Shown here piece after piece: positions 6,005 through 64,000 of a stretch of DNA of 64,000 nt. The notes beneath the pieces were generated by a model. That model saw nothing but the letters and a program-made list of their open reading frames with translations. It did not search any database and was not told the DNA's origin. The stretch's first letter is position 1; each line of letters opens with the position of its first letter. The DNA comes from Acorus gramineus (taxonomy: Eukaryota; Streptophyta; Magnoliopsida; Acorales; Acoraceae): assembly GCA_030737835.1 (NCBI GenBank), contig CM060849.1, positions 3,286,001 through 3,350,000 on the forward strand, in the 5' to 3' direction. The position numbers and the translations under genes were made by a program.

Positions 6005-8591
6005 GTAAGGCAGCACTCTGTATTTTAAAGATATCAGTGAATCTAGTATTTAGAGGCACATTTTTAGGATTATGTCTTCATATGATATGATCATCTATGT
6101 GTCTAGTTGTTATATATGAAATTTGGGGTCATTATGATATCTGTGGTGTAAGTTAGAACCTGTTTTGCATGGCCTGTCCAGATTCGCGTAGGAATTGACC
6201 TGCTTCTGGAAATAATTTATTTTGGGCTTGTAGAGGAAAAATTAGGTTCTAATGTCTTCATATCAGAGAATGTGCAGGTTTTATTTCATAATTTTTGGAA
6301 GTGTATTGGGTGCTGTGGAGATCAATTAGTAGGGTTGGTTGCAGCAGGTTTGGCAGTTTTGTTTGGTTGAGTGTCAAGGAGTTGTTTGCATGTGTCTTGT
6401 GTGATAATATGGAAGTATCAGGGGTTAGGGTCTTCATGAAGTAGGCTTATATGTGTGATAGGAGGTTCCATAATTTAATTATGGATCATTGGTTGTGTTT
6501 TGCAGATCTCGTAGACCGGATGGGCGAGGTCCCGGGTTGCGGTGAGTGGTTTGACCAATCCCCCCCCCTCGAGATGCTCTTGACACGCGCAGTCGTGCGT
6601 CACGCATCGATGGGGCATCCTAGCTATACTACTTGTGTAGATAAGTAGTATGGCCATGCTTAAACTATAATATGTTAGATATCTTGCATGCTAGGCTTAT
6701 ATTGCATGTATTGTATCCATGTATGAATGATTGTATCGCATGCGCCTCTCTAGTATGGGCATGTATTTCTGTAATGTGTATTGATGTATAGAATATGGCA
6801 TGCCTTAGGTAGTATTGTAATACTACTCCCACCATATTAATTGGAATATCCAGCATGATTAAGTCTAGGTTAATAACAGGCACCTGCCTAATATTCCCTT
6901 GCGATAAGACTCGAGGGCGTGGTGTAGTTGTTGCGCCCATGCTAATGGGGCAAAGCTATGACCAACTTCATGAGATGATGATCTCTCTCGCCCTCTCCCT
7001 CTGCACGAACTGATTATGTAGATGCGATTTTCAACTCGACTTAGGTTTGTTTGGATTATTGGCATGCACCTATTAGTGCGCAAGATTTGCGCTTGACCCT
7101 TCCTTTTTAAGTTGGCGATATCCAATGCATGCTTAAGTTAGGCCTTGTGTGCTTATGTGATTAATGGCCATGTATGCATGTTGTATGATTTATTATGATG
7201 TAAATCCATGTTAGGGAGTATCCCTATAATTATTTGATAGGTTATCGTGCATGTAGTTCATGTACATAACTAAGATATAATTCTCCTGGATATATATATG
7301 CGCATGTTAAAACTGATTAGGCCTATCTGAAATAGGCGTGGGTATGACCCGTTGTCGGGTTGTACCTTATTAGTTAGAGCGCTAGCGATGTAATCGCCCC
7401 CGTGCATCTGAGCGATGCACTCGTTTGGAATTCAGGAGAATTCATTATCTTATTGGTTTTGTTAAGCCGGTAGTTGTGGCATTAAGCTAGGCCTACCCGT
7501 GTTAGGCGTGTATATGAACCGCCTGTTGGGTTATGTGCCTTGGGATTATTTCTGCGTGAGAGCAGAGGCAACCCCCCTTGTGTCCAAGCGACGCAATCGT
7601 GTGGGAGTACAATAGTATTCGATATCATCGATATGTGATTATCGAGAGTTGGTTTTTTTCCATTGGGTTCGCTTTGCGAACATGGAGTGTTTCCTCCCAA
7701 TGTCGTCTGTGTTGAAGCGGCCCGGGTTGTAGCTGTCCTAATAGAGGGCTCCCATCCGTAGGTACGACCGATACGTTAGGAAGCGTACTGATCGTGGGAG
7801 TATACCAGGTAGAGGCTACCCGGGAGAAGGCTAACGAATGATATTGCGAGCGTGAAATCGTTCTCCCCTTCGTTGGATCTGATGTAGGAACTCCCCGGCG
7901 TTGGAAAAGCTGTCCTAACAGAGGGCTCCCATCCGTAGGTACCACCGATGCGTTCGGAAGCGTACTGATCGTGGGAGTATACCAGGTAGAGGCTATGTGG
8001 GGAAAGGGCTACCGGTGGACCAAGGGTGTAGAGCAGTCTAAGTGTCTTCCAAAAGTCCTAGTCACCTCTAAAGGGTGAGGGTGAGGATGAGGTGAAGACA
8101 CATCGCCGCGTGACCCATTCGTTGTTCGTCCGTTCCCATAGTTGTTGGGTCCGGTCTCGTATCGATGTTCAAAGACATCGTTGGGCAATTATCTCGATGT
8201 AGATGATCCAGTAGTGTTGTGTAGACCAGTAATTCCAGGTCTCTTCGACCAACGGTATGGTCTCTCCCCAAAAGTCCCAAGAGTTTCCCTCCGGGAGTGA
8301 GGGTGAGGGTGAGGGTGAGGTTGGTGATCCAGTAGAGTTGTGTAGACCAGTAATTCCGCATCTCTTTGACCAACGGTATGGTCTCTCCCGAAAAGTCCCA
8401 AGAGTCTTCCTCCGAGAGTGACGGTGAGGGCAAGGTTGGTCACGGCGCCGTGTGACCCTGTTATCCATGGGTTTCCACCCATGTTTTTCCTTGAAAGGAA
8501 ATTGCCTTAGTATTGAACTGTTGTAATGGTGATTGGTTTCCAGCCACTCACTGAGCTTGTAGCTCACCCCTCGCATACTGTTTCTTTTCAG
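6005..8591 (+). other. Candidate spliced leader in A1 LTR: intron 1, 36-nt microexon, intron 2
   Basis: A donor-like GTAAGG at 6005 is followed by TTTTGCAG ending at 6505, then 36 nt (6506-6541), then GTGAGT at 6542 and a pyrimidine-rich TTTCTTTTCAG ending at 8591. The same layout recurs in the A1 3' LTR (12552-13070, microexon 13071-13106) and in reverse in A3 (intron 44184-44701, microexon 44148-44183). Conservation of the junctions while flanking text diverges suggests splicing, but this is inference without transcript data. Confidence 0.5.
8293..8315 (+). other. G-quadruplex-type motif in A1 LTR
   Basis: Four GGG runs (8293, 8301, 8307, 8313) are separated by loops of five and three bases within a GGTGAG-repeat tract. 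An equivalent motif lies at 18357-18379 in the A1 3' LTR. It meets the usual four-run pattern; whether it folds is unknown. Confidence 0.55.
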
Positions 8592-8970
8592 GGGCAGTGT
8601 TGGGCGTGGAGCTGGAGCTTCCCTGTGTATGGTCATATGGGCGTTGAGCGTTCTTCCGGCCGGTGGCGAGTGCGAGGCTGTCAGCAGTCCTAGAGTCATT
8701 TTATGTATTGTACATTAAACAGGTTGTATTATTTGGATTAGACTTGGCTCTCACAAGAGCCAAGACAGTGATTGTGTATTCGAGTATGTAATAATGTTTT
8801 TGGTTTACAGACATTGTTGATATCTTATGCTTTCACTTTTTAGACAGTTATCATTGGTTTGCCAGCTTGTATGTTGTCTATTGGAGTCATTATTGACCTC
8901 TTGTACTTGATAGCTGATACTTCATTATTGCCACGTCTCGGGGACGGCCGCCCTGGGGCGTGACAAAAGT

Positions 8971-8982: not shown

Positions 8983-11735
8983 CTGGTTCTGTCAGAGCCT
9001 AAGTCTAGTCGTATAGATGATGAGTCGTAGGATTGTCATCCGAGTACTCTTGTTTTAGAAGTTTATCTTAGGTTGCTGACATGCCTCCTCGCATCCGTGG
9101 ACGTGGACGTGGCCACCCCTGGACCCCCCTTAAGTTGTCGACTGGGTTGACTGAATAGGGTCAGTTGTTGGATCCCTTGTTGTGGGATTAAGGCTTGGGT
9201 AGGAGATTCCAGCCCAGTAGTATGATAGTGATGAATTGGTTACAATTTCTATGGTATGTATTTCATCTCGATAATGGAGCTTCTTTTCCGTTCATCGGTA
9301 TTGCTGGTAACCATGGAGTTCGCGTGCAGCGCCAGTTTCAAGCTTTGAGGATGCGGCGTATTGCTCATTAAGGGGTGATGTCTTCTTTCAGTCTTCCTAC
9401 TCAGGATTAAGGGGCCTTGCGGGGTCATCGTTGAGACCCGGGCTAGGGTACTCCGTGTTCCTTGTTTGGTTGTCGGGATATCCTATATCGGGACCTCATG
9501 GTGCCCTCCCAAGGTTTCTTTTCCCAGTCAAGGAATACCTTTGAAGCATCTATTGATGATTGATTTTTCCTCTCACTTGGAAGGTGCTGTAGCTAGTGGT
9601 GATGCGTATGATCGGGATTGGGTGCGTCCTATTGCAGCTTGGTGGGCAATCGCTAGTGGACAGGGTTCCATAGTGGCATCTGGAGTCGCTTCAATATATC
9701 ATTGTGTGTTGTAGCTACCCGGTTGAGGACAGAGCCCTCTGAGGTGCTCCCAGATACTATACTTGTTGGTGCGCCCATATGGCAGAGATAGTGGGCTTGG
9801 GAGGCTACCAAGTAGAGGCCACACCGGGAGAGTGCTACTAGATGATGTCGAGAGCGTGGACTCCCCGTGATGAATCTGCCCATGGAGTGCAGGATGTTGG
9901 AGTTCCAATGGTTATAGTTGAGCGACCTATCTCTGGCGGCATGTGAAGCACAGATGTGGATATTGTCGCGTTTTGCCCAACATTTGTCGCAAATGAGGAG
10001 ACGCGATGCTAACGTTCATGATGGGACTCAACCGCCTTACAAGATAGATGACGTCGCATAGGCATTGTCGAGGTTCGATGACCCCCCTTATCGCATAGGC
10101 ATTGTCGAGGTTCGACGACCCCCTTGTCTTGTGGATTAAGTGCGGTTGAGCGGCTTACCAAGCATGTAAGTGTCATCATGAGCGCCAGCCATGCTCGAGG
10201 AGCAGAATCTAGACTAAATTGTTCGAGGTGTTGTTTTTGATCTTCCCGTAAGGGTTGAAGATCCGGTACCCCTTGCTGTGAATTGATGATCTATTCGACC
10301 AGCTCTGGGAGCGAGTGTCTTCTGTTAGATCAATCTTCGCACAAGGGTAGCACAAGTTGGAGATCCGGAAGTTGGACATCCTGTAGATGGCCTTTCGTGA
10401 CCGTTTCAGGCACTACCAATTTTAAGTACTACCGTCGAGGTTGACGAATGCGCCGGATGCCTTCATGGATCTCAAAAGTTTTATTGGGGCTCCATGGACT
10501 ACTTTGAGGTAGTCTTTATTGAGATTGCTAGTGGTGCGATGAAAAGGCGATATGGGTGACCTTGTTTCCCCAGGTTGGCATGCCCTCATGCAAAGTTCGA
10601 GAATCATCATCGCGTTGGAAAGCGTCAATCCATGGAGATTCTTCAGTGGACGTGGGAATGGGTTATCAGGGATTGTTGCAGACTCGCTAATGTCACATTC
10701 GGGTCACGACGCCGTCTAGGTGATCATTGACTGACTGACTAAGTCCGCGCTTCCCTCCCTAATCCGACTGATTGAGTCTCTGGACGCCTTGACGTGGGTT
10801 TTCACCTTCGCGATTGTTCGTCTTCATGGCACTCTGGTCGGCGCTATTTTCGGTTGAGACGCGAGGGTTACTTTGAGGTTATGGCGCAGCCTTGGCAGGC
10901 TTTGGCGCGAGCCTCTATTTAAGTATAGCGTTTCATCGCCGATGGATAGCCAGACAAAGAGGACGATTCAGACCTTGGAGGACATGCTAAGTGCCTGCGT
11001 GCTCGATGATAAGGGCAGTTGGGTGAGGCACCACCCATTTGTTGGGGTATGCCTCCAAGACGACTGCCATTCGAGCATCCTGATGGTACTGTGAAAGGCA
11101 CTCTACAGGCGCAGTTTTATACCTCCCTTGTGTTGGGACGGTTGAGGAGTGCCAGTTGGAGGGGCCACAAGTTATTTATTTGACCTTGCAGTGGCCAGGT
11201 TGGTTCATGTGTGCATCTGCACCTCCCAGAACCGATAGAAGGGCTACGCAGATCATCGTCGCCAGGAGCTTACCTTCGGGATTGGCGACCATGTTTTCCT
11301 GAAGGTGTCCCAGTTTAAGGGCATCCTCCGTTTCAACGTTTGGGGCAAGCTGAGTTGGCTCTTTAATGGGACTGTTTCTCGTCACTGAGTGAATTGGGGA
11401 GGTGGCTTGTCATGTAGCCTTTCCCCCACAGCTGGCTCATGCCCACGACGTCGTCCTTGTCTCATGGCTGAGGCGTTATGTCCATGATCCTGCTCATGTC
11501 ATTCCGTTTGACCGCCTCATACTCGAGCTAGATTTATCGTTCGTGGAGCAGTGGATCGAAGTCAAGGACCATCATGAGAAGAGGCTCCACGTCCTAAGAC
11601 CGTTCCTTTGATTAGAGTGTGTCGGTAGCGCTAGTCTGGTGCATAGACCACTTGGAAGCAAAAGGTCTATGAGTGATACTTGCTACATTCGGTCTTTCCT
11701 TTGGGATTCTTTAAATTTTGAGGACTAAATTTCCT
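8983..11735 (+). pseudogene. A1 internal region: compacted gag-pol relics
   Basis: A gag-like start reading MPPRIRGRGRG lies at 9081. At 9420-9530 sits a module (words GAGACCCGGGCTAGGG and CCTTGTTTGGTTGTCGGG) also found inside family-B LTRs. Weak RT remnants lie near 10240-10530, an integrase-core remnant near 10890-11090 (TIQTLEDMLSACVLD-like) and the end of a chromovirus-type integrase near 11260-11590 (FGIGDHVFLKVSQFKG; DPAHVIPF). The order follows Tekay-type elements, but the total is far shorter than a complete gag-pol. It is broken in many places; the same compact arrangement recurs in A3. Confidence 0.75.
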
Positions 11736-11750: not shown

Positions 11751-14700
11751 TGTTATGCCTGTGTCATTTGGAGCCATTTCGGTTAAGCCTTGGTCACATC
11801 TGGGTCATTCAGGGCCATTTTCTTTTTCGATCGGAGTCGCTAAAATTTTGGCTTTTAGCCACATACTGAAGTTGAAGTACTCTGATTGAAAATCTACTTA
11901 CATATTATAGGTCCTGGTACTGTTTCGTACTACCCATAAAAATTTCATCGAATTCCGGTAACGTTTTGAAAAATATGCAGTTCCGAACCGTATCCGGGTT
12001 TTGAGAGTTCCTGGTTGGTCGAATAGTGTGAGATATTTTGAGGATGTGGTGACCTTTGGTAACCTTACCCCCACCATGCTTAGTGATGAAGAAACCTTTG
12101 GTCTTTTGGTATGTGAGTGGGTGAGCCTAACCCTAACCTCACCCCCCCTTATGGTCACCCCTAGACACTATTTGGGCATGAAAATGACTTTTTTGCCCTC
12201 TCTCTCTCTCTCTCTCTCTCCCCCTCTCCCATTTCGTGGAACACCTTCTCTCCCTCTCTTGGTCTCTTTTTTTCTCCTCTTTGTGTGTGAAGAAGGAGGA
12301 GGAAGAAGCAATTGAAGGAAAAGATGAAGAAGAAGCACAAGAAAGAGTGAGAAAAGGTGAGTATGTATTGTTGTTGTTGTTGTTGTTTCTCTTCTCTCTA
12401 TCCCTTTCTCATGCCCTTTGCACCCCTGTTTTCTGCCATGAAGGGCTTGAGGAGATGCTGATGAGGTGGTGGTAGTGGTGGTGGTGGTGGTTGAGGTGGT
12501 CGTGGGTGTGTCGAGAACCCCGCATCTCCCCATTTCCCTCCCCCTGTTTTGGTAAGGCAGCACTCTGTATTATAAAGATATCAGTGAATCTAGTATTTAT
12601 AGGCACATTTTTAGGATTATGTCTTCATATGATATGATCATCTATGTGTCTAGTTGTTATATATGAAATTTGGGGTCATTATGATATCTGTGGTGTAAGT
12701 TAGAACCTGTTTTGCATGGCCTATCCAGATTCGTGTAGGAATTGACCTACTTCTGGAAATAATTTATTTCGGGCTTGTAGAGGCAAAATTAGGTTCTAAT
12801 GTCTTCATGGATTATGATCGTAGAATATCAGAGAATGTGCAGGTTTTATTTCATAATTTTTGGAAGTGTATTGGGTGCTGTGGAGATCAATTAGTAGGGT
12901 TGGTTGCAGCAGGTTTGACAGTTTTGTTTGGTTGAGTGTCAAGGAGTTGTTTGCATGTGTCTTGTGTGATAATATGGAAGTATCAGGGGTTAGGGTCTTC
13001 ATGAAGTAGGCTTATATGTGTGATAGGAGGTTCCATAATTTAATTATGGATCATTGGTTGTGTTTTGCAGATCTCGTAGACCGGATGGGCGAGGTCCCGG
13101 GTTGCGGTGAGTGGTTTGATCCTATCCCCCCCCTCGAGATGCGCTCAACGCGCTTAGTCGTGCGTCGCGCATCGATGGGGCATCCTAGCTATACTACTTG
13201 TGTAGATAAGTGGTATGGCCATGCTTAAACTATAATATGTTAGATATCTTGCATGCTAGGCTTATATTGCATGTATTGTATCCATGTATGAATGATTGTA
13301 TCGCATGCGCCTCTCTAGTATGGGCATGTATTCTGTAATGTGTATGGATGTATAGAATATGGCATGCCTTAGGTAGTATTGTAATACTACTCCCACCATA
13401 TTAATTGAAATATCCAGCATTATCAAGTCTGGGTTAATAACGGGCACCTGCCTAATATTCCCTTGCGATAAGACTCGAGGGCATGGTGTAGTTGTTGCGC
13501 CCATGTTAATGAGGCAAAGCTATGACCAACTTCATGAGATGATCTCTCTCACCCTCTCCCTCTGCACGAACTGAGTAAGTAGATGCGATTTCCTACTCGA
13601 CTCAGGTTCGTTTGGAATATTGGCATGCACCTGTTAGTGCGCGAGATTTGCGCTTGACCCTTACCTTTTAAGTTGGTGATATCCAACACATGCTTAAGTT
13701 AGGCCTTGTGTGCTTATGTGATTAATGGCCATGTATGCATGTTGTATGATTTATTATGATGTAAATCCATGTTAGGGAGTATCCCTATAATTATTTGATA
13801 GGTTATCGTGCATGTAGTTCATGTACATAACTAAGATATAATTCTCCTGGATATATATATGCGCATGTTAAAACTGATTAGGCCTATCTGAAATAGGCGT
13901 GGGTATGACCCGTTGTCGGGTTGTACCTTATTAGTTAGAGCGCTAGCGATGTAATCGCCCCCGTGCATCCGAGCGATGCACTCGTTTGGAATTCAGGAGA
14001 ATTCATTATCTTATTGGTTTTGTTAAGCCGGTAGTTGTGGCATTAAGCTAGGCCTACCCGTGCTAGGCGTGTATATGAACCGCCTGTTGGGTTATGTGCC
14101 TTGGGATTATTTCTGCGTGAGAGCAGAGGCAACCCCCCCCCCTTGTGTCCGAGCGACGCAACCGTGTGGGAGTGCAATAGTATTCGATATCATCGATATG
14201 TGATTATCGAGAGTAGGTTTTTTTCCATTGGGTTCGCTTTGCGAACATGGAGTGTTTCCTCCCAATGTCGTCTGTGTTGAAGCGGCCCGGGTTGTAGCTG
14301 TCCTGACAGAGGGCTCCCATCCGTAGGTACCACCGATGCGTTCGGAAGCGTACTGATCGTGGGAGTATACCTGGGAGAAGGCTAACGAATGATATTGCGA
14401 GCGTGAAATCGTTCTCCCCTTCGTTGGATCCGATGTAGGAACTCCCCAGCGTTGGAAAAGCTGTCATGACAGAGGGCTCCCATCCGTAGGTACCACCGAT
14501 GCGTTCGGAAGCGTACTGATCGTGGGAGTATATCAGGTAGAGGCTATGTGGGGAAAGGGCTACCGGTGGACCAAGGGTGTAGAGCATTCTAAGTCTCTTC
14601 CAAAAGTCCCAGTCACCTCTAAAGGGTGTGTTGTGCCTGTGTCATTTGGAGCGCTCTGATTGAAAATTTTGGCTACATAATTTTTTTCCTCGAAGTTATG

Positions 14701-22281: not shown

Positions 22282-23551
22282 TGTCACGCCCCAGGGCGGC
22301 CATCCCCGAGACGTGGCAATAATGAAATATCAGCTATCAATACCTGAGGTTAACAAAGACTGCAACAACAACACACAAGGTGGCAAAGCAAAGATAATGA
22401 TAACTGATTGAAAAGCGGAAGCATAAGATATCAACAATGTCTGTAAACCAATAACATTGTTAAAGACTCGAATACACAATCACTGTCCTGTGAGAGCAAA
22501 GTCTAGTCCAAATAAAATACAACCTGTGCCACATGCACGATTTACAATACATAAAATGACTCTAGGACTGCTGACAGCCTCGCACTCGCCACCCGCCGGA
22601 AGAACGCTCCACGCCCATAAGACCACGCCACAGGGAAGCTCCAGCTCCACGCCCAACACTGCCCCTGAAAAGAAACAGTATGCGAGGGGTGAGCTACAAG
22701 CTCAGTGAGTGGCTGGAAACCAATCACCATACAACAGTTCAATACCAAAACAATTTCCTTCCAAAGGAAAACATGGGTAGAAACCCAATGGATAACAAGG
22801 TCACGCGGCGGCGCGACCAACCTCACCCTCACCCTCACTCCCGGAGGGAGACTCTTGGGTCTCTTGGGGAGAGACCATACCGTTGGTCGAAGAGACCCAG
22901 AATTACTGGTCTACACAACGCTACTGGATCATCTACATCGAGATAACTGCCCAACGATGTCTTTGAACATCGATACGCAACTGGACCCAACAACTATGGG
23001 AACGGATGAACAACGAATGGGTCACGCGGCGACGTGTCTTCACCTTCACCCTTGGTCCACCGGTAGCCCTTTCCCCACGTAGCCTCTACCTGGTATACTC
23101 CCACGATCAGTACGCTTCTGAACGCATCGGTGGTACCTACGGATGGGAGCCCTCTGTCAGGACAGCTTTTCCAACGCCGGGGAGTTCCTACATCGGATCC
23201 AACGAAGGGGAGAACGATTTCACGCTCGCAATATCATTCGTTAGCCCTCTCCCGGGTAGCCTCTACCTGGTATACTCCCACGATCGTGTTATGTATGTGT
23301 CACTTTTAGCCTGCTGGTAACCGTTGGAGCGTTCTGGCAGTTTTTCATTTTTTTTTCGATTTTCGATCGGAACCGCTAATTTTGGACTATTAGCTATCGT
23401 CCTGAGTTAGAGGACTCCGATTGAAAATCTAACTGCATATATCGTGTCCTGGTGCCATTTTAGGTCTCTCACAAAAATTTCATCGAATTTCGGTAACGTT
23501 TCTGAAATTTCGTAGTTCCGGTGCGTATCCGGGTATTTTAAGTGATTCGGC

Positions 23552-23559
23552 TATATAAA
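23552..23559 (+). promoter_or_regulatory. TATA box of B1 5' LTR
   Basis: TATATAAA follows a conserved U3 block and lies about 30 bases before a CACTATTCATCATCCC stretch that probably holds the transcription start. The same box is at 29744-29751 in the 3' LTR. Confidence 0.75.
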
Positions 23560-23860
23560 TGAAATCTAATATTTCATTTGGCACTATTCATCATCCCTAC
23601 CAAAGCTCTCTCTCTCTCTCCCCTCTCTCCTTTTCTTCCATTTGAGCCCCTTAGAGCCCTCAAACCCAAAACCTAAAGCATAAGAAGTGTAGACCCTGGT
23701 GCTTCCAAATCCCGATTCAGACCAACCTAGCCCTCCCATCCGCCCTCTCTTCTCCTCAGATCCGAGCCAAATTGGAGGTGGGAGTAGATCCCGGTGGTAG
23801 AGACCGTTGGGGAAGCGTTTCGGTGCGTGGAGAGCAACCGGACGCCTCTTCCTCCCCTTG

Positions 23861-26183
23861 GTAAGCTCCCTTTCCTCTTCTTTTTGGCTTAGATGTATGC
23901 TAGGATGGGGGTTTTGTGTTTGGGTGGTGGTCGGCGGCTGTGGGAGGCCGTCGGAGGTGGTTGGTGGCGGTCGGAGGCCATTGGGTGGGTGGTGGAGGTG
24001 CTCGGGCATGGGGGTTGCTGGTTCGGGCAGCAGGCAGCACCGGCAGCAGCACTGGTGGCCAGCAGGGCGCGCGTGCTGGACGTGCGGGCGCGGGGCGTGC
24101 AGGGCGCTGGGCGGTGCTGGGTGCTGGCCGAGCGGAGGTGCGTGCAGGGCATCGTGCAGGGTGCGCGCGGAGCGCTGCGCAGGGGCGCAGGCACGCTGTG
24201 CGCGTGCGGGAGTCGGTGGAGCGCTGGGCGTGCTGGTTGCTGGCGTGCCGGGTGTGCTGGGCGCGCGTGCAGGGGCGCAGTGCGCGCGGGTGCACCCGGG
24301 AGGAACTGGTCGAGCCGCTGGTGCGAGGAGCTGGTCGAGCGGCTGGTGCGGAGAGCATGCGCGCGGAGGGCGCGCGGGGCGGGGCAGGGCAGGGGAGGTG
24401 CGCGCGGAGTGCGCGGGGCGAGGCAGGGGAGGTGCGCGCGGGGCGAGGCGCTGTGCGCGCGGGGCGTGCAGTGTGCTCGCGGGTCAGTGCGGGGTGCGCG
24501 CGGGCTGCTGCGGCAGGGCGCAGTGGGCGCGCGGTGCCCCGGGTGGTGCAGCTGCGGGTCCAAGCGTGCGGGCAGGGGCCGGCGGTGCGCCTGGGTGCGC
24601 GGGCTGAGGCGCGGCGGTGCACCCGGGGTCGGGAGGCCGTGCGGGTGGTCGCCGGGGGTGCAGGAGTGAGCCGGGGTGCTCGGGCTAGCATGCGTGCGGG
24701 TCGTATGCACGTTTGCCCGAGTGTTGGGTGTTTCGTTGTAGGTTTTGTATGTTTTGTGTATTTAATGGTATTTGTGGATTTATACATACCAATTAATACC
24801 CTGTCTTGCAGATCTCGACATATGGTCGCGCGTCGACCTGACTTCTGGTGAGTGGGACAATCCAACCCAGTAGAGAGGCGTTATACGCATTTGGGCGTAT
24901 ACCGACCTCTCCTGGGGCACCATGGATTTATATTAACCTGTTGTAAAGTGTATTTCATGCGAGCATGATTTTAAAATGTAGAATGCATGTTACCCTAGAC
25001 TTTGTATGTTAGGGACTTGCACCCATAGGATATGTGTATGAGCCATGCATCATGTCCCCCTGTTCTCATGCTAGGAAGCCTCGGCCTATGCATGCGTCCT
25101 ACTAGTTTATTTATTAAATTAAATGCTAGTATATGTTAATTGCATGCCTTAGATAATATTATAGAGAGGGGCCTTGCGAGGTCAACATTGAGACCCGGGT
25201 TAGGGTACTCCGTGTTCCTTGTTTGGTTGTCGGGATGTCCTGTATCGGGACCTCATGCTACCCTCCCAAGGTTCTTGTCCCAATAATATTATATCTCTAA
25301 TTGATAATTAATGATTTACCCCTTGTATGATTATTAGCATCTTAGTGAATATTATAGGGGAGGGGCCCTGCGAGGACAGCGGTGAGACCCGGGCTAGGGT
25401 GCTCCGTGTTCCTTGTTTGGCTGTCGGGGTGTCCTATATCGGGAACTCACGCTGCCCTCCCAAGTTCCTTTCCCCCAATGATATTCCAACCTTGCTATTA
25501 TTGTACATGTTCCCCGCATCTTGGTTATGCGCCCTGGAGGAATTCTGAGGAATTCAGGACATTAGAGTCGTTGAGATGTGTAGTCGGCGGATCCGAGTGG
25601 ATCATATGCGTATGGATAGGCTGTTCTGTCCCCTTCGTTGGATCCGGTAGAGGCTGCCCCAGCGTTAGAAAGGCCGCCCTTCCAAGGGTTCCCATCAGTA
25701 GGCGCCTCCTGATTTTGGTTTCGGACTGTGCTGAAGTTGTGGGTGAGGGCTCCCATCAGTAGGCACCTCCTGATTTGGTTTCGGACTGTGCTGAATGTGG
25801 GAGTAGACCAAGCGGCCTACAGAGTGGAGGAGAGACTATCGGTGGACCAAGGGTGACCAACAGCCTAGTCAGTCCCAAAATCCTATGTCACCCATTGAAG
25901 GGTGAGGGTGAGGGTGTAGTGGGTTGGCGATTAGCGACCCGCTGGTTTTGTGATTGGATGATTATCAGTCCCAAAATCCTATGTCACCCATTGAAGGGTG
26001 AGGGTGAGGGTGTAGTGGGTTGGCGATTGAGCGACCCACTGGTTTGACTATTTGTTACCATTTTGTGGTTGTTAATAAGAGATTGTGGGTTATAAAGATT
26101 GAATTGTGGTCAATATTGTCTGTGATGCATGGGTTGTGCTGTTCACTGAGCGTGTGGCTCACCCCTCGCATATTTTTCCCCAG
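23861..26183 (+). other. Candidate spliced leader in B1 5' LTR: CpG-rich intron, 36-nt microexon, intron 2
   Basis: The donor-like CTTG/GTAAGC is at 23861 and the acceptor CTTGCAG ends at 24811 (951 bp). The unit 24812-24847 is 36 nt. GTGAGT starts at 24848, and TTTTTCCCCAG ends at 26183. In the 3' LTR the matching sites are 30070, 31052, 31053-31088 and 31089. Further copies: microexons 3747-3782 (minus), 54765-54800, 61713-61748 (minus) and 63960-63995. The CpG-rich block lies inside intron 1. Splicing is inferred from conserved signals only. Confidence 0.5.
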
Positions 26184-26582
26184 TTGTCACTGAGCCGGAG
26201 CCGGAGGAGCAGTTGGAGCCGTCCGAGGGATTCCTTCAGTAGCGGAGCAGCGCTACGTTCCGCGAGTGCCAGAGGCTATCAGCATCCCTTCTTGACTGTA
26301 TGTATTTTATTTCCGTGCTTGGCACGCGTTTGTATATATTCAGTTGTATTTGTGTATATTGGCTCTCACAGGACAGATGATTGAGTATCGAGTCTGTAGT
26401 ATGTTTATTTACAGATTCAGTCTTTTGCTTCCGCATTTGGTGTATATATCATGTCAGCCTCTTTGTTGTCTGTGTGTCATTCTGGTTGCTTGTGTATGAT
26501 ATATTATTGACCTCCTGTGTAGATTCTGATATTTTATATACACTTGCCGCGTCTCGGGGACGCCCGGGGCGTGACAAAAAGT

Positions 26583-26594
26583 TGGTATCAGAGC
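26583..26594 (+). other. B1 primer-binding site (initiator tRNA-Met)
   Basis: TGGTATCAGAGC begins six bases after the 5' LTR end at 26576, the same spacing and primer as in A1, supporting a common lineage. Confidence 0.95.
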
Positions 26595-26696
26595 CTGGTC
26601 CTGTCAGAGCCAATAGTCTTCCTTTCGTAGAGATGAGTCCTAGGATTTCTATATGAGTATTCTGATCCTAGTGTCTGGTTTTCTTAGGGTGCTGAT

Positions 26697-27956
26697 ATGC
26701 CTCCTCGCAGAGGACGGCGCGGACGAGGTCCCTCTCGGTCTTTGGAGGTTTCCGGACCTACCAGAGACGAGGATGCTACCGGAGAGTCCTTGGCACAGGA
26801 GCCTCCTGCTTGGGAGCGTGCTTTCGCTCGGTTGGCTGATTTGGTGGAGACACAGACGAGGGCGCTGGAGGCCCAGACCAGAGCATTAGCAGAGCAGGCT
26901 AGAGATATTCAGGAGCTGAGGGTGGCTCGCGAGGCAGTTCCGCGGGTCCCCTTGGTGGCAGATCCGCCTGCGGTACCCGATGTACCCCCAGTTCCCGTAG
27001 CGATTCTGGCAGTAGGAGTTGAGGATCCCCTGGAGAGGGAGGAGGAGCTAGAGGCGGCGGCGCGAGTGCAGCAGAGAGGCCTCAACGCCTTTCTGAAGCT
27101 CCACCCTCCCGAGTTCCATGGTCAGTCGGCAGATCCTCTTGCGCCAGAGCATTGGTTGAGGGAGGTGGATACGATCTTCGCGGCCATGCTTTGCACTGAT
27201 CGCCAGCGAGTCCCCCTCGCCACCTTTATGCTGAAGGGTGACGCCGCCGACTGGTGGGCTACCCGAGTGGTGGACATCCCAGAGGGAGTGGAGCAGCTTT
27301 CTTGGGCGGGATTCCGGAGGTATTTCTTGGAGGAGTACTTCCCGTTCTCGACGCGCCAGATCGTGATGCGGGAGTTCGAGCAGTTGACGCAGGGCTCCAT
27401 GTCGGTTGCTGACTACTCTACGCGCTTTACGAGGCTGTCCAGATTTGCTCCAGCCTTGGTGATGGATGAGGACACACGGTGCCGCCGTTTCGAGTGGGGT
27501 CTCAGCAGCGCCATTCGGGTGCACGTCACCTCCCAGGCATTCTCGAGGTTCTCGGACTTGGTGTCTCGAGCGAAGACGGTCGAGCGAGATCTCGGGATCA
27601 TCGTGGGGGTTCCGACCCCTTCTGCAGATCAGGGTCCTTTCGGGAGCCAGGACCAGGGGCAGCGCAAGAAGAGGAGGCCCCGCTTCGATCAGTCAGCGGC
27701 TGCCTCTCCTCCAGCAGATGCGGTGCCAGTGTGGGATCCAGCACCCATTGCAGCAGTGCCCATCCAGTCCATGCAGTCGGAGAGGCGGCGCTGTTTCCAT
27801 TGTCAGCGCATCGGGCATATCAGATACCATTGCCCTGATGCTGGCCGACCCGAGTGCTACCTCAGCAGCCGCAGTTCTTACAGCAGCAGCTTCCGCGCCA
27901 GCAGTAGCAGCCTCAGCGTCAGCAGCAGCCACAGGGTGGTCGAGTTGACCAGTTGA
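26697..27956 (+). CDS. gag: B1 Gag polyprotein, Tekay-type
   Basis: An open frame of 419 codons begins at the ATG of a basic N-terminus (MPPRRGRRGRG), the same start type seen in A1. Residues 40-80 are heptad-like and Ala/Gln/Leu-rich, probably coiled coil. Residues 132-300 form the retrotransposon gag (capsid) domain, with PPEFHGQ, a WL helix, AADWW and the FEQLTQGSMSVADY stretch. A zinc knuckle C-X2-C-X4-H-X4-C lies at residues 366-379 and would bind packaged RNA. A Ser-rich tail follows. Gag assembles the cytoplasmic particle. It is GC-rich and uninterrupted, unlike the rest of the internal region. A protease-RT reading region does not follow directly, so B1 encodes structural protein at most. 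It is treated as part of a fossil element whose gag looks whole. Confidence 0.88.
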   Translation: MPPRRGRRGRGPSRSLEVSGPTRDEDATGESLAQEPPAWERAFARLADLVETQTRALEAQTRALAEQARDIQELRVAREAVPRVPLVADPPAVPDVPPVPVAILAVGVEDPLEREEELEAAARVQQRGLNAFLKLHPPEFHGQSADPLAPEHWLREVDTIFAAMLCTDRQRVPLATFMLKGDAADWWATRVVDIPEGVEQLSWAGFRRYFLEEYFPFSTRQIVMREFEQLTQGSMSVADYSTRFTRLSRFAPALVMDEDTRCRRFEWGLSSAIRVHVTSQAFSRFSDLVSRAKTVERDLGIIVGVPTPSADQGPFGSQDQGQRKKRRPRFDQSAAASPPADAVPVWDPAPIAAVPIQSMQSERRRCFHCQRIGHIRYHCPDAGRPECYLSSRSSYSSSFRASSSSLSVSSSHRVVELTS

Positions 27957-41831: not shown

Positions 41832-44800
41832 TGTCACGCCCCAGGGCGGCCGTCCCCGAGATGTGGCAATAATGAAGTATCAGCTATCAATACCTGAGGT
41901 CAACAAAGACTCCAACAACAACACACAAGGTGGCAAAGCAAAGATAATGATAACTGACAGAAAAGCGGAAGCATAAGATATCAACAATGTCTGTAAAACA
42001 AAAACATTATTACAGACTCGAATACACAATCACTGTCCTGTGAGAGCCAAGTCTAGTCAAAATAAAATACAACCTGTGCCACATGCACGATTTACAATAC
42101 ATAAAATGACTCTAGGACTGTCGACAGCCTCACACTCGCCACATTTCGGAAGAACGCTTCACACCCATAAGACCACGCCACAGGGAAGCTCCAGCTCCAC
42201 GCCCAACACTGCCCTTGAAAAGAAACAGTATGCGAGGGGTGAGCTACAAGCTTAGTGAGTGGCTGGAAACCAATCACCATTACAACAGTTCAATACTAAA
42301 GCAATTTCCTTTCAAGGAAAACATGGGTGGAAACCCAATGGATAACAAGGTCACGCGGCGGCGCGACCAACCTCACCCTCACCCTCACTCCTGGAGGAAG
42401 ACTCTTGAGACTTTTGGGGAGAGACCATACCGTTGGTCAAAGAGACGCGGAATTACTGGTCTACACAATACTTCTGGATCATCTACATCGAGATAACTGC
42501 CCAACGATGTCTTTGAACATCGATACGCAATCGAACCCAACAACTATGGGAACGGACGAACAACGAATGGGTCACGCGGCGATGTGTCTTCACCTCATCC
42601 TCACCCTCACCCTTTAGAGGTGACATAGGACTTTTGGAGAGATTAGACTCCTCTACACCCTTGGTCCACCAGTAGCCCTTTCCCCGGGTAGTCTCTACCT
42701 GGTATACTCCCACGATCAGTACGCTTCCGAACGCATCGGTGGTACCTACGGATGGGAGCCCTCTATCAGGACAGCTTTTCCAACGCCAGGAAGTTCCTAC
42801 ATCGGATCCAACGAAGGGGAGAACGATTCCACGCTCGCAATATCATTCGTTAGCCCTCTCCCGGGTAGCCTCTACCTGGTATACCCCCATGATCAGTACA
42901 TCTTGCCGCATGCATCGATAGTACCTTTAGGTGGGGGCCCTCTGTCAGGACAGCTACAACCTGGGCCGCTTCAACACGGACGACATTGGGAGGAAACACT
43001 CCATGTTCGCAAAGCGAACCCAATGGAAAAACAACTACTCTCGATAATCACATATCGATGATATCGAATACTATTGTACTCCCACACGGTTGCGTCGCTC
43101 GGACACAAGGGGGGTTGCCTCTGCTCTCACGCAGAAATAATCCCAAGGCACATAACCCAACAGGCGGTTCATATACACGCCTAGCACGGGTAGGCCTAGC
43201 TTAATGCCACAACTACCGGCTTAACAAAACCGATAGATAATGAATTCTCCTGAATTCCAAACGAGTGCATCGCTCGGATGCACGGGGGTGATTACATCGC
43301 TAGCGCTCTAACTAATAAGGTACAACCCGACAACGGGTCATACCCACGCCTATTTCAGATAGGCCTAATCAGTTTTAACATGCGCATATATATATCCAGG
43401 AGAATTATATCTTAGTTATGTACATGAACTACATGCACGATAACCTATCAAATAATTATAGGGATACTCCCTAACATGGATTTACATCATAAACAATAAA
43501 TCATACAACATGCATACATGGCCATTAATCACATAAGCACACAAGGCATAACTTAAGCATGCGTTGGATATCACCAACTTAAAAGGGAAGGGTCAAGCGC
43601 GATCTCGCGCACTAACAAGTGAATGCCAATATTCCAAACGAACCCGAGTCGAGTAGGAAATTGCCTCTACTTACTCAGTTCGTGCAGAGGGAGAGGGCGA
43701 GAGAGATCATCATCTCATGAAGTTGGTCATAGCTTTGCCCCATTAGCATGGGCGCAACAACTACACCACGCCCTCAAGTCTTATCTCAAGGGAATATTAG
43801 GCAGGTGCCCGTTATTAACCCAGACTTAATCATGCTGGATATTCTAATTAATATGGTGGGAGTAATATTACAATACTACCTAAGGCATGCCATATTCTAT
43901 ACATCCATACACATTACAGAATACATGCCCATACTAGAGGGGCGCATGCGATACAATCATTCATACATGGATACAATACATGCAATATAAGCCTAGCATG
44001 CAAGATATCTAACATATTATAGTTTAAGCATGGCCATACTACTTATCTACACAAGTAGTATAGCTGGGATGCCCCATCGATGCACGACGCACGATTACGC
44101 GCGTCGAGCGCATCTCGAGGGGGGGGGGATTGGATCAAACCACTCACAGATACCCGGATCGCCGCGCGTCCGGTCTACGAGATCTGCAAAACACAACCAA
44201 TGATCCACAATTAAATATGGACCTCCTATCACACATATAAGCCTACTTCATGAAGACCCTAACTCCTGATACTTTCATATTATCACACAAGACACATGCA
44301 AACAACTCCTTGACACACAACTGAGCAAAACTGCCAAACTTGCTGCAACCAGCCCTACTAATTTTATCTCCACAGCACCCAATACACTTCCCAAAACTAT
44401 GAAATAAATCATGCGCATTCTATGGCATGCTGGGATCATAATCCATGAAGACATTAGAACCTAATTTTGCCTCTACAAGCCCGAAATAAATTATTTCCAG
44501 AAGCAGGTTGATTCCTACGCGAATCTGGACAGGCCATGCAAAACAGGTTCTAACTTACACCACAGATATCATAATGACCCTAAATTTCATATATGACAAC
44601 TAGACACATAGATGATCATATCATATGAAGACATAATCCTAAAAATGTGCCTCTAAATACTAGATTCACTGAGATCTTTAAAATGCAGAGTGCTGCCTTA
44701 CCAAAACAGGGGGAGGGAAATGGGGAGATGCGGGGTTCTCGACACACCCACGACCACCTCAACCACCACCACCACTACCACCACCTCATCAGCATCTCCT

Positions 44801-53356: not shown

Positions 53357-56012
53357 TGTTATATATGTGTCACTTTTATCCTTCTGGTCACCTTTAGGAA
53401 ATTCTGGCAGTTTTTCAACTTTTTCTTTTTTCGATCGGAACCGCTAAAATTTTGGACTTTTGCCAATCATCATGAGCTTGAGAACTCCGATTGAAAATCC
53501 AACTGCACATTATGTGTCCTGGTGCCATTTCAAGCCACTCACGAAAATTTCATCGAATTCCGGTAACGTTTCAGAATTTGGCAGTTCTGAATCGTATCCA
53601 GGTTTTGACCAAGCAGAAAGTCAGGGGAGACTTGACCAAGTCAAAGATGACTTTGACCAAGTCAAGTTTGACCATTGACTTGGTCAAATCATTTTGTTTG
53701 TTAGTGTGGTTAGGTTGACCCAAAGTCAATCTCACCAAAAACCCTAAATACCCTAAGTGTGTGAGTGTGTGAGTGTGTGTGTGTGTGAGCCTAAGTGGGC
53801 GTCCCCTTCTCCCTTCCCTTCTCTTCTCTTCATCTCTCTCTCACACACAAAGCTCCACCTCTTCCTCTTCTCTCTTTTTCCACCATTAGAGGTAGTAGAA
53901 GGCAAAGAACAAGGAAGCCCTAGAAGGGAAAAAGATTGGTAAGGGCTTGATCTATCTTCCTATGGTTTTTGTTTTTGCTTTCCCCTTTGTTTACCTCCCT
54001 CTCATGGCTCCCCTTCTCCCCTGTTTTCAGCCTTTGTAAGGGCTGAGGGTGGTCTTGGTGGTGGTGGTCTTGGTGGTGGCGATTCGGTGCGCGAAGGGCA
54101 CCCGAGTTTCCTCCCTTTCCTTTCCTCTCTTTGGGTAAGCTTTTCTCCTCCCTATGCTTGTTTAAATGCTTGATTAGGGTATCTGATTGGGTGTGCATGC
54201 TATGCATGGGTGATAGGGGCTGTGGGAGGGCTGAGGAGGGGGTGGAAGGGGATCGGACGCGCATGCGGGGTCATCCGCGCGCGTGCGCGCGAGTCTGCGC
54301 GCGCAGGCAGGCGCTGGCGCGCGCAGACGGGCGCGCTGGCGGGCGCGCGCGCGTACACGCAGACGCGCGGGCGTGCGCGCGGAGTGCTGCGCGGGGGCGT
54401 AGTGCGCGCGGGTACGCCAGGGCTGGACGCGCGGTGCTCGCGGGCGCGCGTGCACGCAGCGTGTCTGGGCGCGCGGGCAGGGGCACAGCAGCGTGTCTGG
54501 GCGCACGGGCAAGGGCACGGCAGTGCGCTCGGGGCGCAGGGGTGCGTGCGGGCGTGCGCGTTCGTGCGTGCTCGTGCGGGTGGCCGTGCGTATGGCTGCC
54601 CGTGGGTTCGGGAGGGTGTCAGGGCACTCGGACTCGCGTGCGTACGCGCGTGCTTGCGTGCGTGCGGGCCCGTATGCATGCTTGTCCGAGTATTGGGTAT
54701 TTCTAGTGTATTTCTTATGTATTTGTGCAGTTTACTCACCATATTAAATGCCTATGTCTTGCAAATCTTGACGGACAGTCACGCAACGACCCGGGCTTCG
54801 GTGAGTGGGACAATCCAATCCAGTAGAGAGGCGTTCAATGCACGTAGGCGTGCATTGCCCTCCCCTGGGGCACCATAATTGTATATTAACATGTAATAAA
54901 TGTAAAGCTATGCATGCATGATTAATATGATATATCCATGCCACCTTAGACTTTGTATGCTAGGGATATGCACCCTTATATCATGTATAGCGGCCTATGC
55001 ATGTTTAGTCACCTTGTCCTTTAATTGGAAAGCCCCGAACTATGCATGTTCCCATCTAGTTTAATCTAATTAAATCAAAATGTGAGCATGCCTTAGAGAA
55101 TATTATAACCTTGTTGTTATAATATATGATTCCCCACATCTTAGTTATGCGCCCTGGAGGAATTCTTGAGAATTCATGACATTAGTAGAGTTACAATCGG
55201 TGTTGACGGATCCAAGAGGATCGTATCCGTGTGAGTAGGCTGTCTTCTCCTTTTGGTTGGATCCGATGTAGGAACTCCCCGGCGTTAGCTGGCCTGACAG
55301 AGGGCTCCCGTCCGTAGGTACCTCCGATGCGTCGGACTGTACTGATAGTGGGAGTATACCAGGTGGAGGCTACGAGGGTGGGAGAGGCTACCGGGTGGAC
55401 CAGGGGTGGAGAGCGGTCTAGTATGCCCCAAGAGGCCCATGTCACCCCCCGAAAAGGGTGAGGGTGAGGGGGGAGGTGGGTTGGCGATGAAACGACCCAT
55501 TAGAATGTGTGGTTGCTCCCGTTTTAGGGACTATAAATTATTTAAGGTTAATATGAATTGTGATGCATGGGTTGTGCTATTCACTGAGCGTGTGGCTCAC
55601 CCCTCGCATATATTTTTCTCTAGTGATATCTGAGTCGGATCTGAAGGAGGAGCTCCCCGAGGCACATCAGCAGTAGTGGAGCAGCGTCACATTCTGCGAG
55701 TGAGGACCATCAGCATCCCCTTTTGATTGTATGTATTGTTATCCGTGCTTGGGCACATACTTGTATTTGGATGTCATTGTATATATATTGGCTCTCACAG
55801 GACAGTTGATTATGTATCGGGTCTGTAATATGTCTTTGAATTACAGACTCAGTCGTTTGAGCTTCCGCTATTTGTATATATTATGTCAGCTACATTATTG
55901 TCTATGTTGTCATTTTCGATGTTGTTTAGAGTATTTTATTGATCTGTTGTATAGACTACTGATATTATATATACTTGCCACGTCTCGGGGACGACCGCCC
56001 TTGGGCGTGACA
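53357..56012 (+). mobile_element. B2: solo LTR of family B
   Basis: It begins TGTTATATATGTGTC and ends GGGCGTGACA, with TSD GTTCG at 53352-53356 and 56013-56017. Length is 2656 bp, shorter than the B1 LTRs because one module of the second-intron region is absent. U3 carries a W-box cluster (53604-53730). The donor-like GTAAGC is at 54135, the CpG-rich block at about 54240-54690, the microexon candidate at 54765-54800 and GTGAGT at 54801. Confidence 0.93.
53604..53730 (+). promoter_or_regulatory. W-box cluster in U3 of B2
   Basis: TTGACC or TTGACT cores, on either strand, occur about ten times in 130 bases just upstream of the leader, partly as back-to-back TTGACC/AAGTCAA pairs. TTGAC[CT] is the core bound by WRKY factors. 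A similar cluster lies at 62616-62725 in B4, while B1 has none at this position. Confidence 0.6.
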
Positions 56013-60263: not shown

Positions 60264-62368
60264 TGTCACGCCCCAGGGCGGCCGTCCCCGGGACGCGGCA
60301 AGTGTATACATGATATCAGCAGTCTATACAGGAGATCAATAAAATACTCTAAACAACAACTAAAATGACAACACAGACGAAAGCAAGGCTGACATGATAT
60401 ATACACAGATAGCGGAAGCTAAAAGACTGAGTCTGTAATTCAAAACATACTACGAACTCGATACATAATCATCTGTCCTGTGAGAGCCAATATACACACA
60501 TACATCCAAATAATATACAAACGGTGCCCAAGCACGGAAATATATACATACAATCAAAAGAAAGGATGCTGATGGCCTCTAATACTCACGGGACGTGGCG
60601 CTGCTCCGCTACTGATGAAGTCTCTCGGGGAGCTCCTCCTTCTGGTCCGACTCAGTGATAACTGAAGAAAATATTATGCGAGGGGTGAGCCACACGCTCA
60701 GTGAACAGCACAACCTATGCATCACAGTTTATATTAACCACAAATAAATAATCAAGCCTCAAAGTGGCAGGAACTACACAATCCAGTGGGTCGCTACATC
60801 GCCGACCCACCACACCCTCACCCTCACCCCTCAATATGGTGACATAGGATATTGGGACTGACTAGGCTGTTAATCATCCTTGAACTACACAAATCCAGTG
60901 GGTCGCTACATCGTCGACCCACCACACCCTCACCCTCACCCCTCAATAGGTGACATAGGATATTGGGACTGACTAGGCTGTTGGTCACCCTTGGTCCACC
61001 GATAGTCTCTCCTCCACTTCGTAGGCCGCTTGGCCACTCCCACATTCAGCACAGTCCGTCCCAAATCAGGAGGTGCCTACTGATGGGAGCCCTCTCACGG
61101 GACGGCCTTTCTAACGCTGGGGCAGTCTCTACACGGATCCAACGAAGGGAACAGAACAGCCTATCCATACGCATATGATCCACTTGGATCCGCCGACAAC
61201 ACATCTCAACAACTCTAATGTCTTGAATTCTTCAGAATTCCTCCAGGGCGCATAACCAAGATGCGGGGAAAATATAAGATAATAATGAGGAAAAGAAACC
61301 TTGGGAGGGCAACCTGAGGTCCCGATATAGGACATCCCGACAACCAAACAAGGAACACGGAGTACCCTAGCCCGGGTCTCAATGTTCGCAAGGCCCCCTT
61401 AATATTCCCCAAGGCATACTAATAGACATACGCTCGCATTTAATTTAATCAATTAAACTAGTAGGACGCATGCATAGGCTGAGGCTTCCAAGCATGAGAA
61501 CAGGGTGACAGGATACATGGCTCTTACACATATCCTAAGGGTGCAAGTCCCTAACATACAAAGTCTAGGGTAGCATGCATACTACATATTAATCATGCTT
61601 GCATGGATTACATATTAAACGGGTTAAGATTAAACCACGGTGCCCCAGGGGAGGACGGTATACGCCCAAGTGCATATAGCGCCTCCCTACTGGGTTGGGT
61701 TGTACCACTCACCGATAACCGAGTCGTCGCGCGACCGTCCGTCAAGATCTGCAAGACAGGCTAATCAACTTGGTGAGTAAAATACACAAATATACACAAA
61801 AATACACTAAAATACCCAACACTCGGACAAGCGTACATACGGCCTGTACGCACGCGAGTCCGAGCACCCCGACTCACTCCCGAACCCCCGGGCAGCCGTA
61901 TGGGCGGCCACCCAACCCAGGCACACAGCCGCGCCTCAGCCCGCGCACCCAGGCGCACTGCCGAGCCCCTGCCCGCATGCCCGGACACGCTGCCGAGCCC
62001 CCCGGGTGCACCGCGCGCTCCCTGCGCCCCAGCGCAGCAACCCGCGCGCACAACCGCACGCCCTGCGCCCTAGCACCTCACCCCGCGCGCACCCCGCGCG
62101 CACCACCAGCTCGCCTCACCGCGCGCGCACAGCACGCCTGCGCCTCTGCGCAGCGCTCCGCACACACGCCCCCGCACGGCGCCCTGCGCGCAGCACCCAC
62201 ACACGGCCCCGCGCGCACGGCACGCACTGCGCCTTTGCGCAGCGCTTCGCGCGCATGCCCTCGCACGGCGCCCAGCGCGCAGCACCTGCACACCCTGCAC
62301 AACCCGAGCGCACGCTCGCGCGCACGCGCGCGTGCCCTGCCTGCATGCCCGACAGCGCCCTGCCCTGC
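60264..62368 (-). mobile_element. B3: family-B LTR, reverse orientation, partial
   Basis: It starts TGTCACGCCCCAGGG within T2 and proceeds like a reversed family-B LTR: the GAGACCCGGGCTAGGG module in reverse at about 61290-61400, the microexon candidate at 61713-61748 with CTGCAA at 61749-61754, then a CpG-rich block from about 61835. It is cut at 62368 by B4 inside the CpG block; the rest would lie right of the window. Solo or full-length status is unknown. Confidence 0.85.
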
Positions 62369-64000
62369 TGTTATATATGTGTCACTTTTAACCTTCTGGT
62401 CACCATTGGAACATTCTGGCAGTTTTTCAGTTTTTTTCGTTTTTCGATCGGAACCGCTAAAATTTCAGGCTTTTAGCTATCAGCCTGTGTTTGAGGGCTC
62501 CGATTGAAAATATAACTGCATATTATGTGTCCTGGTGCCATTCCAAGCCGCTCACAAAAATTTCATCGAATTCCGGTAACGTTTCAGAATTTCGCAGTTC
62601 CGAAGCGTATCCAGGTTTTGACCGAGCGAAAAGTCATTGGGTGACTTGACTTGGTCAAAGTTGACCTTTGACTTGGTCAAATGAATTTGGATTTTTGTGT
62701 GGTTGGGTTGACTAGGGTCAAACCACACTTAAACCTAATCTAATCTAGCCTAAACCTAATTAGGGCTAATCTAAGGGGTGTGAGAGTGTGTGATGTATGT
62801 GTGAGGATAAATAAATCCCACGGCCAAGACAAAATCCTCCACTATTCATCATCTTCTCGGAAATTTCTCTCTCTCCCTCTCTTTAATCCTCCCTTTTGAC
62901 CTAGTTCTTGAGGTTGAAACCGAAAACCCTAAGAAGAGAAAAGATAGGTGAGCTCCCGATCTACCTTCCGGTGGTCTCGGATTCGAGTTCCCACGTGTGT
63001 GACCCCTTCTCACACCCTCTTTTCTCCTCTGTTTTCAGCCTTGCTTTGGCTGGGGGGAGGTCTTGGTGGTGGTGGTCTTGGAGGTGGCAAATCGGTGCGC
63101 GAGGAGCACCCGTTCTTCCTCCCCTTCTCTTCCTCTCCTAGGGTAAGCTTCCTTTCCTTCCATTTCTTGTTTAGATGTATGTTAGGGTGTGTTTTTGGGA
63201 GTGAAAGAGGTGCTTGGTGGTTTGGGAGTGGTTGTGGTGGCTGTTGGTGGCGGTTGGAGTGGTGGAGCTCGGCTCGAGCGCATGCGGGCAGCGGCGCGCG
63301 CAGGCAGGCAGGCGCAGGCGGGCGAGCTGCGGGCAGGCGCACTGGGCGCGTGCTGTCGGGCTCACTGGGCGCGTGCGGTCGGGCGCGTAGGGCGCAGTGC
63401 GCGGCGTGCGCGCGGAGCGCTACGTAGGGGCGCGTGGTGAGCAGGTGGTGTGCGGGGTGCTGCGCAGGGGGCGCAATGCGCGCAGGGTGAGCGGGGAGTG
63501 TGTGCGGGGCACTACGCTGGAGTGCAGTGCGGGCGGGTGCGCGTGCGGGGCGCTGCGTTGGGGCGCAGTGCGCGCGGGTGCACCCGGGGCTGGACGAGCG
63601 AGTGGTGCGCGCGGGGTGCGTGCGGGGTGCGGCGTTGCGGCGCTGGGCGTGCGGGTGTGCGCGCGGGTTGCTGCGCTGGGGCGCAGTGAGCGCGCGGTGC
63701 ACCCGGGGAGTTTCGGCAGGGTGTCCGGGCGTGCAGGCTGGGCTCGGCAGTGCGCCTGGGCGCGCGGGCTGGAGCGCGGCGGTGCGCCCGGGGCGGGTGG
63801 CCGTGCGGATGATTGGCCGGGGGTCCGGGAGTGAGTCAACGTGCTCGGACTCGCGTGCGTACGGGCCGTATGTACGCTTGTCCGAGTATTGTGTATTTTT
63901 AGTGTATTTTTGTGGTATTTGTGTATTTTACTCACCAAGTTGGTTACCCTATTTTGCAGATCTTGACGGACGGTCGCGCGACGACCCGGCTATCTGTGAG
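62369..64000 (+). mobile_element. B4: family-B LTR, 5' part, running off the window
   Basis: It begins TGTTATATATGTGTC inside B3. U3 has a W-box cluster (62616-62725) as in B2. A CT-rich leader follows, then a donor-like GTAAGC at 63143, a CpG-rich block (about 63265-63860), an acceptor-like TTTTGCAG ending at 63959, the microexon candidate 63960-63995 and GTGAG at the window end. The bases before it are CCTGC (62364-62368), the expected left TSD copy; the right one lies outside. Confidence 0.88.

Follow-up and report, generated by a model that had tools for sequence, protein, structure and literature searches.

Plant long terminal repeat (LTR) retrotransposons are generally intron-less, with Ogre and EVADE among the exceptions named in the available sections of a 2025 review (PMC12786077). 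Like CRR, these are plant LTR elements with spliced transcripts: Ogre splices between its open reading frames (ORFs), EVADE drops its protease domain and CRR drops rt, and none of these events is placed in the LTR in the available sections describing them (PMC12786077, PMC3735527). BARE1 of barley makes a spliced Gag RNA and a separate replication RNA, but its 104-nt intron lies by the end of gag, outside the LTR, and its authors failed to amplify DNA copies of the spliced RNA (PMC3735527). Spliced isoforms of sunflower elements (PMC7730604) and a back-spliced RNA of maize CRM1 (PMC7010299) have also been described. Foamy viruses offer a parallel: their major splice donor sits in the R region of the LTR, 5' of the poly(A) signal, and RNA structure controls how it is used. 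Binding of U1 to this donor suppresses polyadenylation in the 5' LTR, and the structure acts at the 3' end (PMC3694450). Here we describe long LTRs of Ty3/Gypsy-type elements in Acorus gramineus that, read from sequence alone, hold a whole intron and a short exon-like unit of usually 36 nt, whereas the foamy virus donor sits within an R of 193 nt (PMC3694450). The window analysed is a stretch of 64,000 nt (assembly GCA_030737835.1, contig CM060849.1, forward strand, 3,286,001 to 3,350,000), and positions are counted from its first letter.

The rice element Retrosat2, discussed with RIRE3 and RIRE8, resembles the present elements in its LTRs of more than 3.2 kb, its predicted R of 2,023 bp and the position of its TATA box close to where the LTR begins, but the word "intron" occurs 0 times in its available main text, and the two were compared by description only (PMC3485330). 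Among the titles and abstract starts of open-licence papers we found none on an intron or microexon inside plant LTRs, which by itself does not prove novelty.

We think it probable that these LTRs carry a gene-like spliced leader for the gag mRNA, in which the unit is the second exon. The initial annotation had noticed the unit as microexon-like, and the positions and strands it gave were borne out for all ten units in the window, nine of 36 nt and one of 39 nt. On the plus strand these are the units of the 5' and 3' LTRs of element A1 (6506..6541 and 13071..13106), the 39-nt unit of C1 (16154..16192), those of the 5' and 3' LTRs of B1 (24812..24847, its 5' end backed by the fusion copies described below, and 31053..31088), a D-type unit (54765..54800) and a unit at the window edge (63960..63995). 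On the minus strand are a unit in a solo B-type LTR (3747..3782, also supported by self-BLAST), that of A2 (44148..44183) and that of E (61713..61748). GTGAGT follows directly 3' of all ten, the 63960 copy being cut at GTGAG by the window edge, and TTGCAG directly precedes nine, the D-type copy having TTGCAA. In the whole genome (398.6 Mb, 137 contigs) the motif TTGCAGATCTYG-N25..34-GTGAGTGG had 5,736 + 5,841 = 11,577 exact matches, and the reversed motif used as a control had 0.

The window and twenty fetched 10-kb loci together gave 38 units, after one of 39 candidates had been removed for mismatches and the cut 63960 copy excluded. Their lengths were 36 nt (31 units), 39 nt (three), 37 nt (three) and 35 nt (one), so the multiple-of-three length first proposed fails, and their downstream sequence splits them into several groups, more than the two families first recognised. 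The twenty loci are biased to intact signals because they were chosen with the motif; L036p1553, L044p2978 and L050p2931 deviate from the motif yet keep TTGCAG and GTGAGTGG. Most B-type units have, 565-1,372 nt upstream, a GTRAG donor directly after a CT-rich exon end (42 rows, 29 of them distinct, after removal of L037 and L009), and similar donors lie 413-722 nt upstream of A- and C-type units. Overall the upstream donors span 413-1,372 nt, against the 0.5-1.1 kb of the initial annotation. The intron so bounded, intron 1, measures 951 nt in B1 (GTAAGC...TTGCAG, 23861..24811) and 501 nt in A1 (GTAAGG...TTGCAG, 6005..6505).

Copies without intron 1 were sought by screening for B-type units with YYNNG before ATCT, a pattern that excludes TTGCAG. 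The screen gave 49 matches, 25 with exon-1-like ends (CCTTG in 16, CTTGG in four, TTTGG in three, TCTTG in one and TTCGG in one) and 24 ending in AG. The latter are acceptor variants (TCCAG 12, TTCAG 9, TCTAG 2, CTCAG 1), AG being kept in all. We fetched and read 14 of the 25 exon-like cases and two of the 24 AG cases. In all 14, the end of exon 1 abuts ATCT and the 36-nt unit, and the GT...AG stretch homologous to intron 1 of B1 is exactly gone; the unit is followed by GTGAGTGG in 13 of these fusions and by ATGAGTGG in one. The intron was still present in both AG-ending cases. The final 12 exon letters match the letters before the donor of intron-bearing copies in 8 of the 14, the 12-nt end of B1 exon 1 recurring joined to the unit in L051-L057, and the final 100 letters showed 79-100% identity to an intron-bearing exon 1, with L056 identical to L045. 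Two fusions are less clean: some letters near the exon end are seemingly missing in L064, and the likeness of L061 to exon 1 is confined to the later part of 220 nt. In the A family the junction predicted from the B-like donor, the one at 6005 in the initial annotation, had 22 genome matches, and the predicted C-family junction had 13, both by pattern only. An alternative A donor at about -700 (GAAARG|ATCT) had 0 fusion matches in the genome, so the donor at -501 was retained.

Intron 1 thus has conserved GT and AG sites and is exactly removed in RNA-derived copies, by pattern in A and C. It is a true intron inside these LTRs, with its 3' end at the unit. Its exact absence from LTR copies means that new LTRs were made by reverse transcription of spliced RNA.

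The fusions were placed on a tree of 43 rows, comprising the 14 fusions and 29 intron-bearing rows (merged from 42 by identity), without L037 and L009, whose donor looked misassigned. The fusion label changed 9 times on the tree, at least five changes being forced by starred branches, and a single origin of the 14 fusions was rejected (approximately unbiased test, p 0.00014). An intron in a repeat makes a prediction of its own: in LTR replication both R copies derive from the 5' end of the RNA, so both LTRs should lose the intron if spliced RNA is copied. Three same-strand fusion pairs lie 5,088, 5,115 and 5,123 nt apart, a spacing as for two LTRs of one element. Intron-bearing pairs, chosen by eye among the matches listed, are spaced 5,930-6,510 nt apart in five pairs and B1, and 7.9-8.0 kb in three others. 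The letters of two of these fusion pairs were read. In one, L052 and L053 come out as sisters; in the other, the tree places L065 with L058, 9.3 kb off, and not with L059, which makes the pairing of L065 with L059 unsure. Spliced RNA has returned to the genome on more than one occasion, and RNAs minus intron 1 only have repeatedly founded LTR copies without it.

In the leader that we propose, transcription would start downstream of a TATA box lying about 0.3 kb inside the LTR (which is ~3.3 kb long in B1). The TATA-like box of B1 is CTATATAA (23551..23558), which would put the start near 23581. A CT-rich, ATG-poor exon 1 would then run to the GTRAG donor; that of B1 (predicted at 23581..23860) has no ATG and ends in TTCCTCCCCTTG. 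The spliceosome removes intron 1 (0.4-1.4 kb) up to TTGCAG|ATCT, as the genomic copies show. The 36-nt unit would be exon 2, closed by the GTGAGTGG donor (24848..24855 in B1), whose conservation suggests that it is used. This donor would probably be joined to an acceptor just before the gag ATG. An acceptor-like TTAG just 5' of that ATG is common to A and B: the predicted site is TTTTCTTAG in B1, with its AG (26686..26687) 9 nt before the ATG, and TATCTTAG in A1 (AG 9070..9071, ATG at 9081). The joining would drop a hairpin, the primer binding site and dozens of upstream ATGs, leaving a Gag messenger that could not be reverse transcribed. Alternatively, the donor could be joined to the acceptor of a terminal exon 3 upstream of the predicted poly(A) region, mainly in the 3' LTR. 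In the 5' LTR such a transcript would run into that region; in the 3' LTR the joining would be traceless, because the 5' end serves as the template for a new LTR. RNAs minus intron 1 only would keep the hairpin and the primer site, and would thus be replication-competent.

The distribution of ATG was uneven along the leader. The 220 nt leading up to the junction or donor held 21 ATGs against 118.9 expected (43 rows, with none in 31 of them), while a 660-nt part of intron 2 had 940 against 461 expected (38 rows). Between the predicted start and the gag ATG of B1, exon 1 has 0, intron 1 nine, the unit one and the sequence after the unit 40.

Downstream of the unit, the block TTCACTGAGCNTGTNGCTCACCCCTCGCATA or a near form with a pyrimidine tract was present in 31 of the 38 LTRs, with AG in 29 of the 31 and AA in its place in L044p5011 and the A2 copy at 44148. 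The block was not found in the stretch searched in the other seven (L031, L033p5006, L033p7401, L045m1628, L048p5006, L050m4956 and windowp13070); in two of these, L048p5006 and L050m4956, other LTRs interrupt the sequence. In B1, TTCACTGAGCGTGTGGCTCACCCCTCGCATA and a pyrimidine tract ending in CAG (26142..26183) form the predicted exon 3 acceptor, and the purine-rich start of exon 3 would occupy 26184..26293, the end coordinate being approximate; the acceptor region of A1 is GCTCACCCCTCGCATA...CAG (8562..8591). The TTCACTGAGCNTGTNGCTCACCCCTCGCATA block (B1 26142-26172; A1 around 8562) is near-identical in A and B despite widely differing introns, and its conservation seems to exceed what a branch point with its pyrimidine tract would require. 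GTATGT at exon 3, a candidate donor for a third intron, is missing from most A copies.

From about 18 nt 3' of the unit a long hairpin folds in most copies (24866..24916 in B1); it begins later in A and C, and L048p5006 folds differently. Its shape is alike and its sequence different in most diverged families. Fold z over 38 rows averaged -3.05 (range -6.06 to -0.74, with 29 of 38 below -2), and ten rows folded separately gave z of -5.30 to -1.21. These 38 rows formed the first alignment, taken from 46 distinct rows by thinning six near-copies and omitting two further rows, and its automatic consensus structure across 151 columns was poor. Covariation was counted in an alignment of 27 rows with the hairpin given by hand, which left out ten A- and C-type rows and L048p5006, whose stems are in another register or which fold otherwise. 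In this alignment 93.4% of pair cells pair, compared with 37-58% when slid and 90.8% in letter shuffles. There were 16 cells changed on both sides, where shuffles gave 4.9, and 18 further pair types, where shuffles gave 16.5 (the 18 being matched by 38 of 500 shuffles); these counts overstate events because the rows are related. A hairpin within the unit was rejected as the cause of unit conservation, four units alone having z of -0.33 to 0.91. Retroviral packaging signals lie downstream of the splice donor; by analogy, and speculatively, the hairpin may mark unspliced RNA for packaging, or, as in foamy viruses, may modulate the binding of U1 and the choice of poly(A) site.

Block identity across 19 LTRs was 75% for the unit, 66-71% for the intron flanks, 65% for the end of exon 1, 62% for the start of exon 3 and 52-58% for mid-introns; the figure of 97% for the pre-acceptor block is too high, half of that block having been anchor. 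The freely diverging flanks of the initial annotation do not hold for the first ~80 nt downstream, where most families keep the hairpin. Its selected architecture is supported by sequence comparison, through the signals shared across diverged families, the depletion of ATG in exon 1 and the covarying hairpin; block identity, which leaves exons 1 and 3 level with the intron flanks, does not add to this. A microexon is about 50 nt or less and has both splice sites used. That designation is so far one-sided, because no genomic copy was found with the 3' donor of the unit used: exact intron-1-less copies strongly support splicing into the unit, and on the 3' side the donor is conserved, which is suggestive of an exon end.

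The strongest alternative accepts intron 1 and denies that GTGAGTGG is a donor; the unit would then be the start of a long exon, conserved together with the following 80 nt because an RNA element, serving packaging, dimerisation or as a U1 decoy, extends across the site. We regard this as unlikely, although several results agree with it. All 14 fetched fusions continue beyond the unit into intron 2 sequence, and conservation and covariation extend beyond the donor. A small stem in the unit is also possible, since RNAalifold placed a 4-bp stem there, one of whose pairs has both partners altered in 8 of 38 rows. Genome pattern searches found no unit|exon 3 fusions in B and A and no unit|gag acceptor fusions with a B-type unit. 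Such an absence fits a spliced leader, as use of GTGAGTGG likely removes what replication needs, but it equally fits a donor that is never used. On the other side, GTGAGTGG, which we take to resemble a strong plant donor, occurred in 15 of the 16 units retrieved irrespective of their donor, two acceptor-like sites lie downstream, and an unspliced B1 leader would carry 50 ATGs ahead of gag.

Besides this absence of intron 2 fusions, several points weigh against a spliced gag leader. Its start and poly(A) sites are predicted ones, and splicing is known here from genomic DNA. The fusions are rare: with the same core, the TTGCAG form had 4,861 genome matches, so that the 25 fusions amount to ~0.5% of B copies; replicating RNA may seldom be spliced, or intron-less copies may amplify poorly. 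They are also somewhat clustered on the tree, where shuffled labels average 12.1 changes against the 9 observed, and some of them therefore share descent. The 22 A and 13 C matches were counted without inspecting their letters. ATG is not depleted in the units themselves (18 against 15.7 expected in 36 distinct units), and exons 1 and 3 are no more alike between families than the intron flanks.

It is very improbable that the unit is a protein-coding microexon, with exon 1, unit and exon 3 encoding an LTR-borne peptide, although unit and exon 3 share one open frame to a common TAG in many B copies. Differences by codon position numbered 1237, 1482 and 1548 in 31 units and 198, 146 and 204 in 11 distinct rows of exon 3, so that third positions are not favoured in either. 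Exon 1 is ATG-poor, the frame is broken by the 35- and 37-nt units and by an 11-nt exon 3 deletion in L035 and L038, and conservation continues beyond the TAG. Hardly credible at all is an account without splicing, in which short repeats caused the deletions that gave the fusions, and the signals arose by chance or are promoter motifs of the LTR: CTTG or TTTTG does precede both donor and acceptor, but recombination there would leave the CAG, which is absent from all 14 copies read, each ending exactly at ATCT, while the at least five changes forced on the tree and the comparable junctions matched by pattern in A and C also speak against it.

The spliced gag leader remains our preferred reading. 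A further proposal is more tentative and may well prove wrong. These LTRs might hold a retrovirus-like splice switch, whose parts would be a leader intron with no effect on replication, a short exon in the leader and a donor whose use takes out both hairpin and primer site. One splicing step would then separate the Gag mRNA from the genomic RNA in thousands of copies, with intron loss recurrent but rare. The group whose LTRs contain this intron numbers over eleven thousand motif copies, and a record of the splicing is preserved in the genome. Intron losses provide a natural count of spliced RNA entering replication, which bears on the division between translation and replication RNA in retroelements. 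For annotation, caution is advisable, as RNAs initiated within LTRs of this kind may undergo splicing.

B1 is the element in which the anatomy was read most fully. Its 5' LTR (TGTTATGTATG...GGGGCGTGACA, 23287..26576, plus strand) and 3' LTR (29478..32818) are a self-BLAST pair of 94.7% identity with ends read, and CGATCG stands on both outer flanks; these TG...CA direct terminal repeats with a flanking duplication identify an LTR retrotransposon. The 2.9 kb between the LTRs includes the primer binding site TTGGTATCAGAGC (26582..26594) and gag (26697..27953), which matched Pfam Retrotrans_gag (E 1.3e-17) and Ty3_capsid (E 1.8e-8), and the primer site and gag are of Ty3/Gypsy type. The second half of the internal region had no Pfam match in three frames, and B1 looks non-autonomous. 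Their lineage may be Tekay-like. Rfam and tRNA scans of the window gave no matches.

Intron 1 of B-type copies (23861-24811 and homologues) has a very high GC content and stays open in several frames of either strand, with stop-to-stop ORFs of 200-350 aa, perhaps through composition alone. The solo B-type LTR (2021-5510, minus strand) sits within the 5' LTR of A1, whose segment 1710-2020 resumes at 5511. A segment of the C1 LTR is duplicated (17484-18114 and 18381-19008, 88% identity), and its acceptor block therefore occurs twice. In the leader of D-type families (53939-54030 and the upstream regions of L032, L033p7401 and L049), a seeming extra donor (e.g. GATTG|GTAAGG) and a TTTTCAG acceptor were seen, possibly an additional leader intron.

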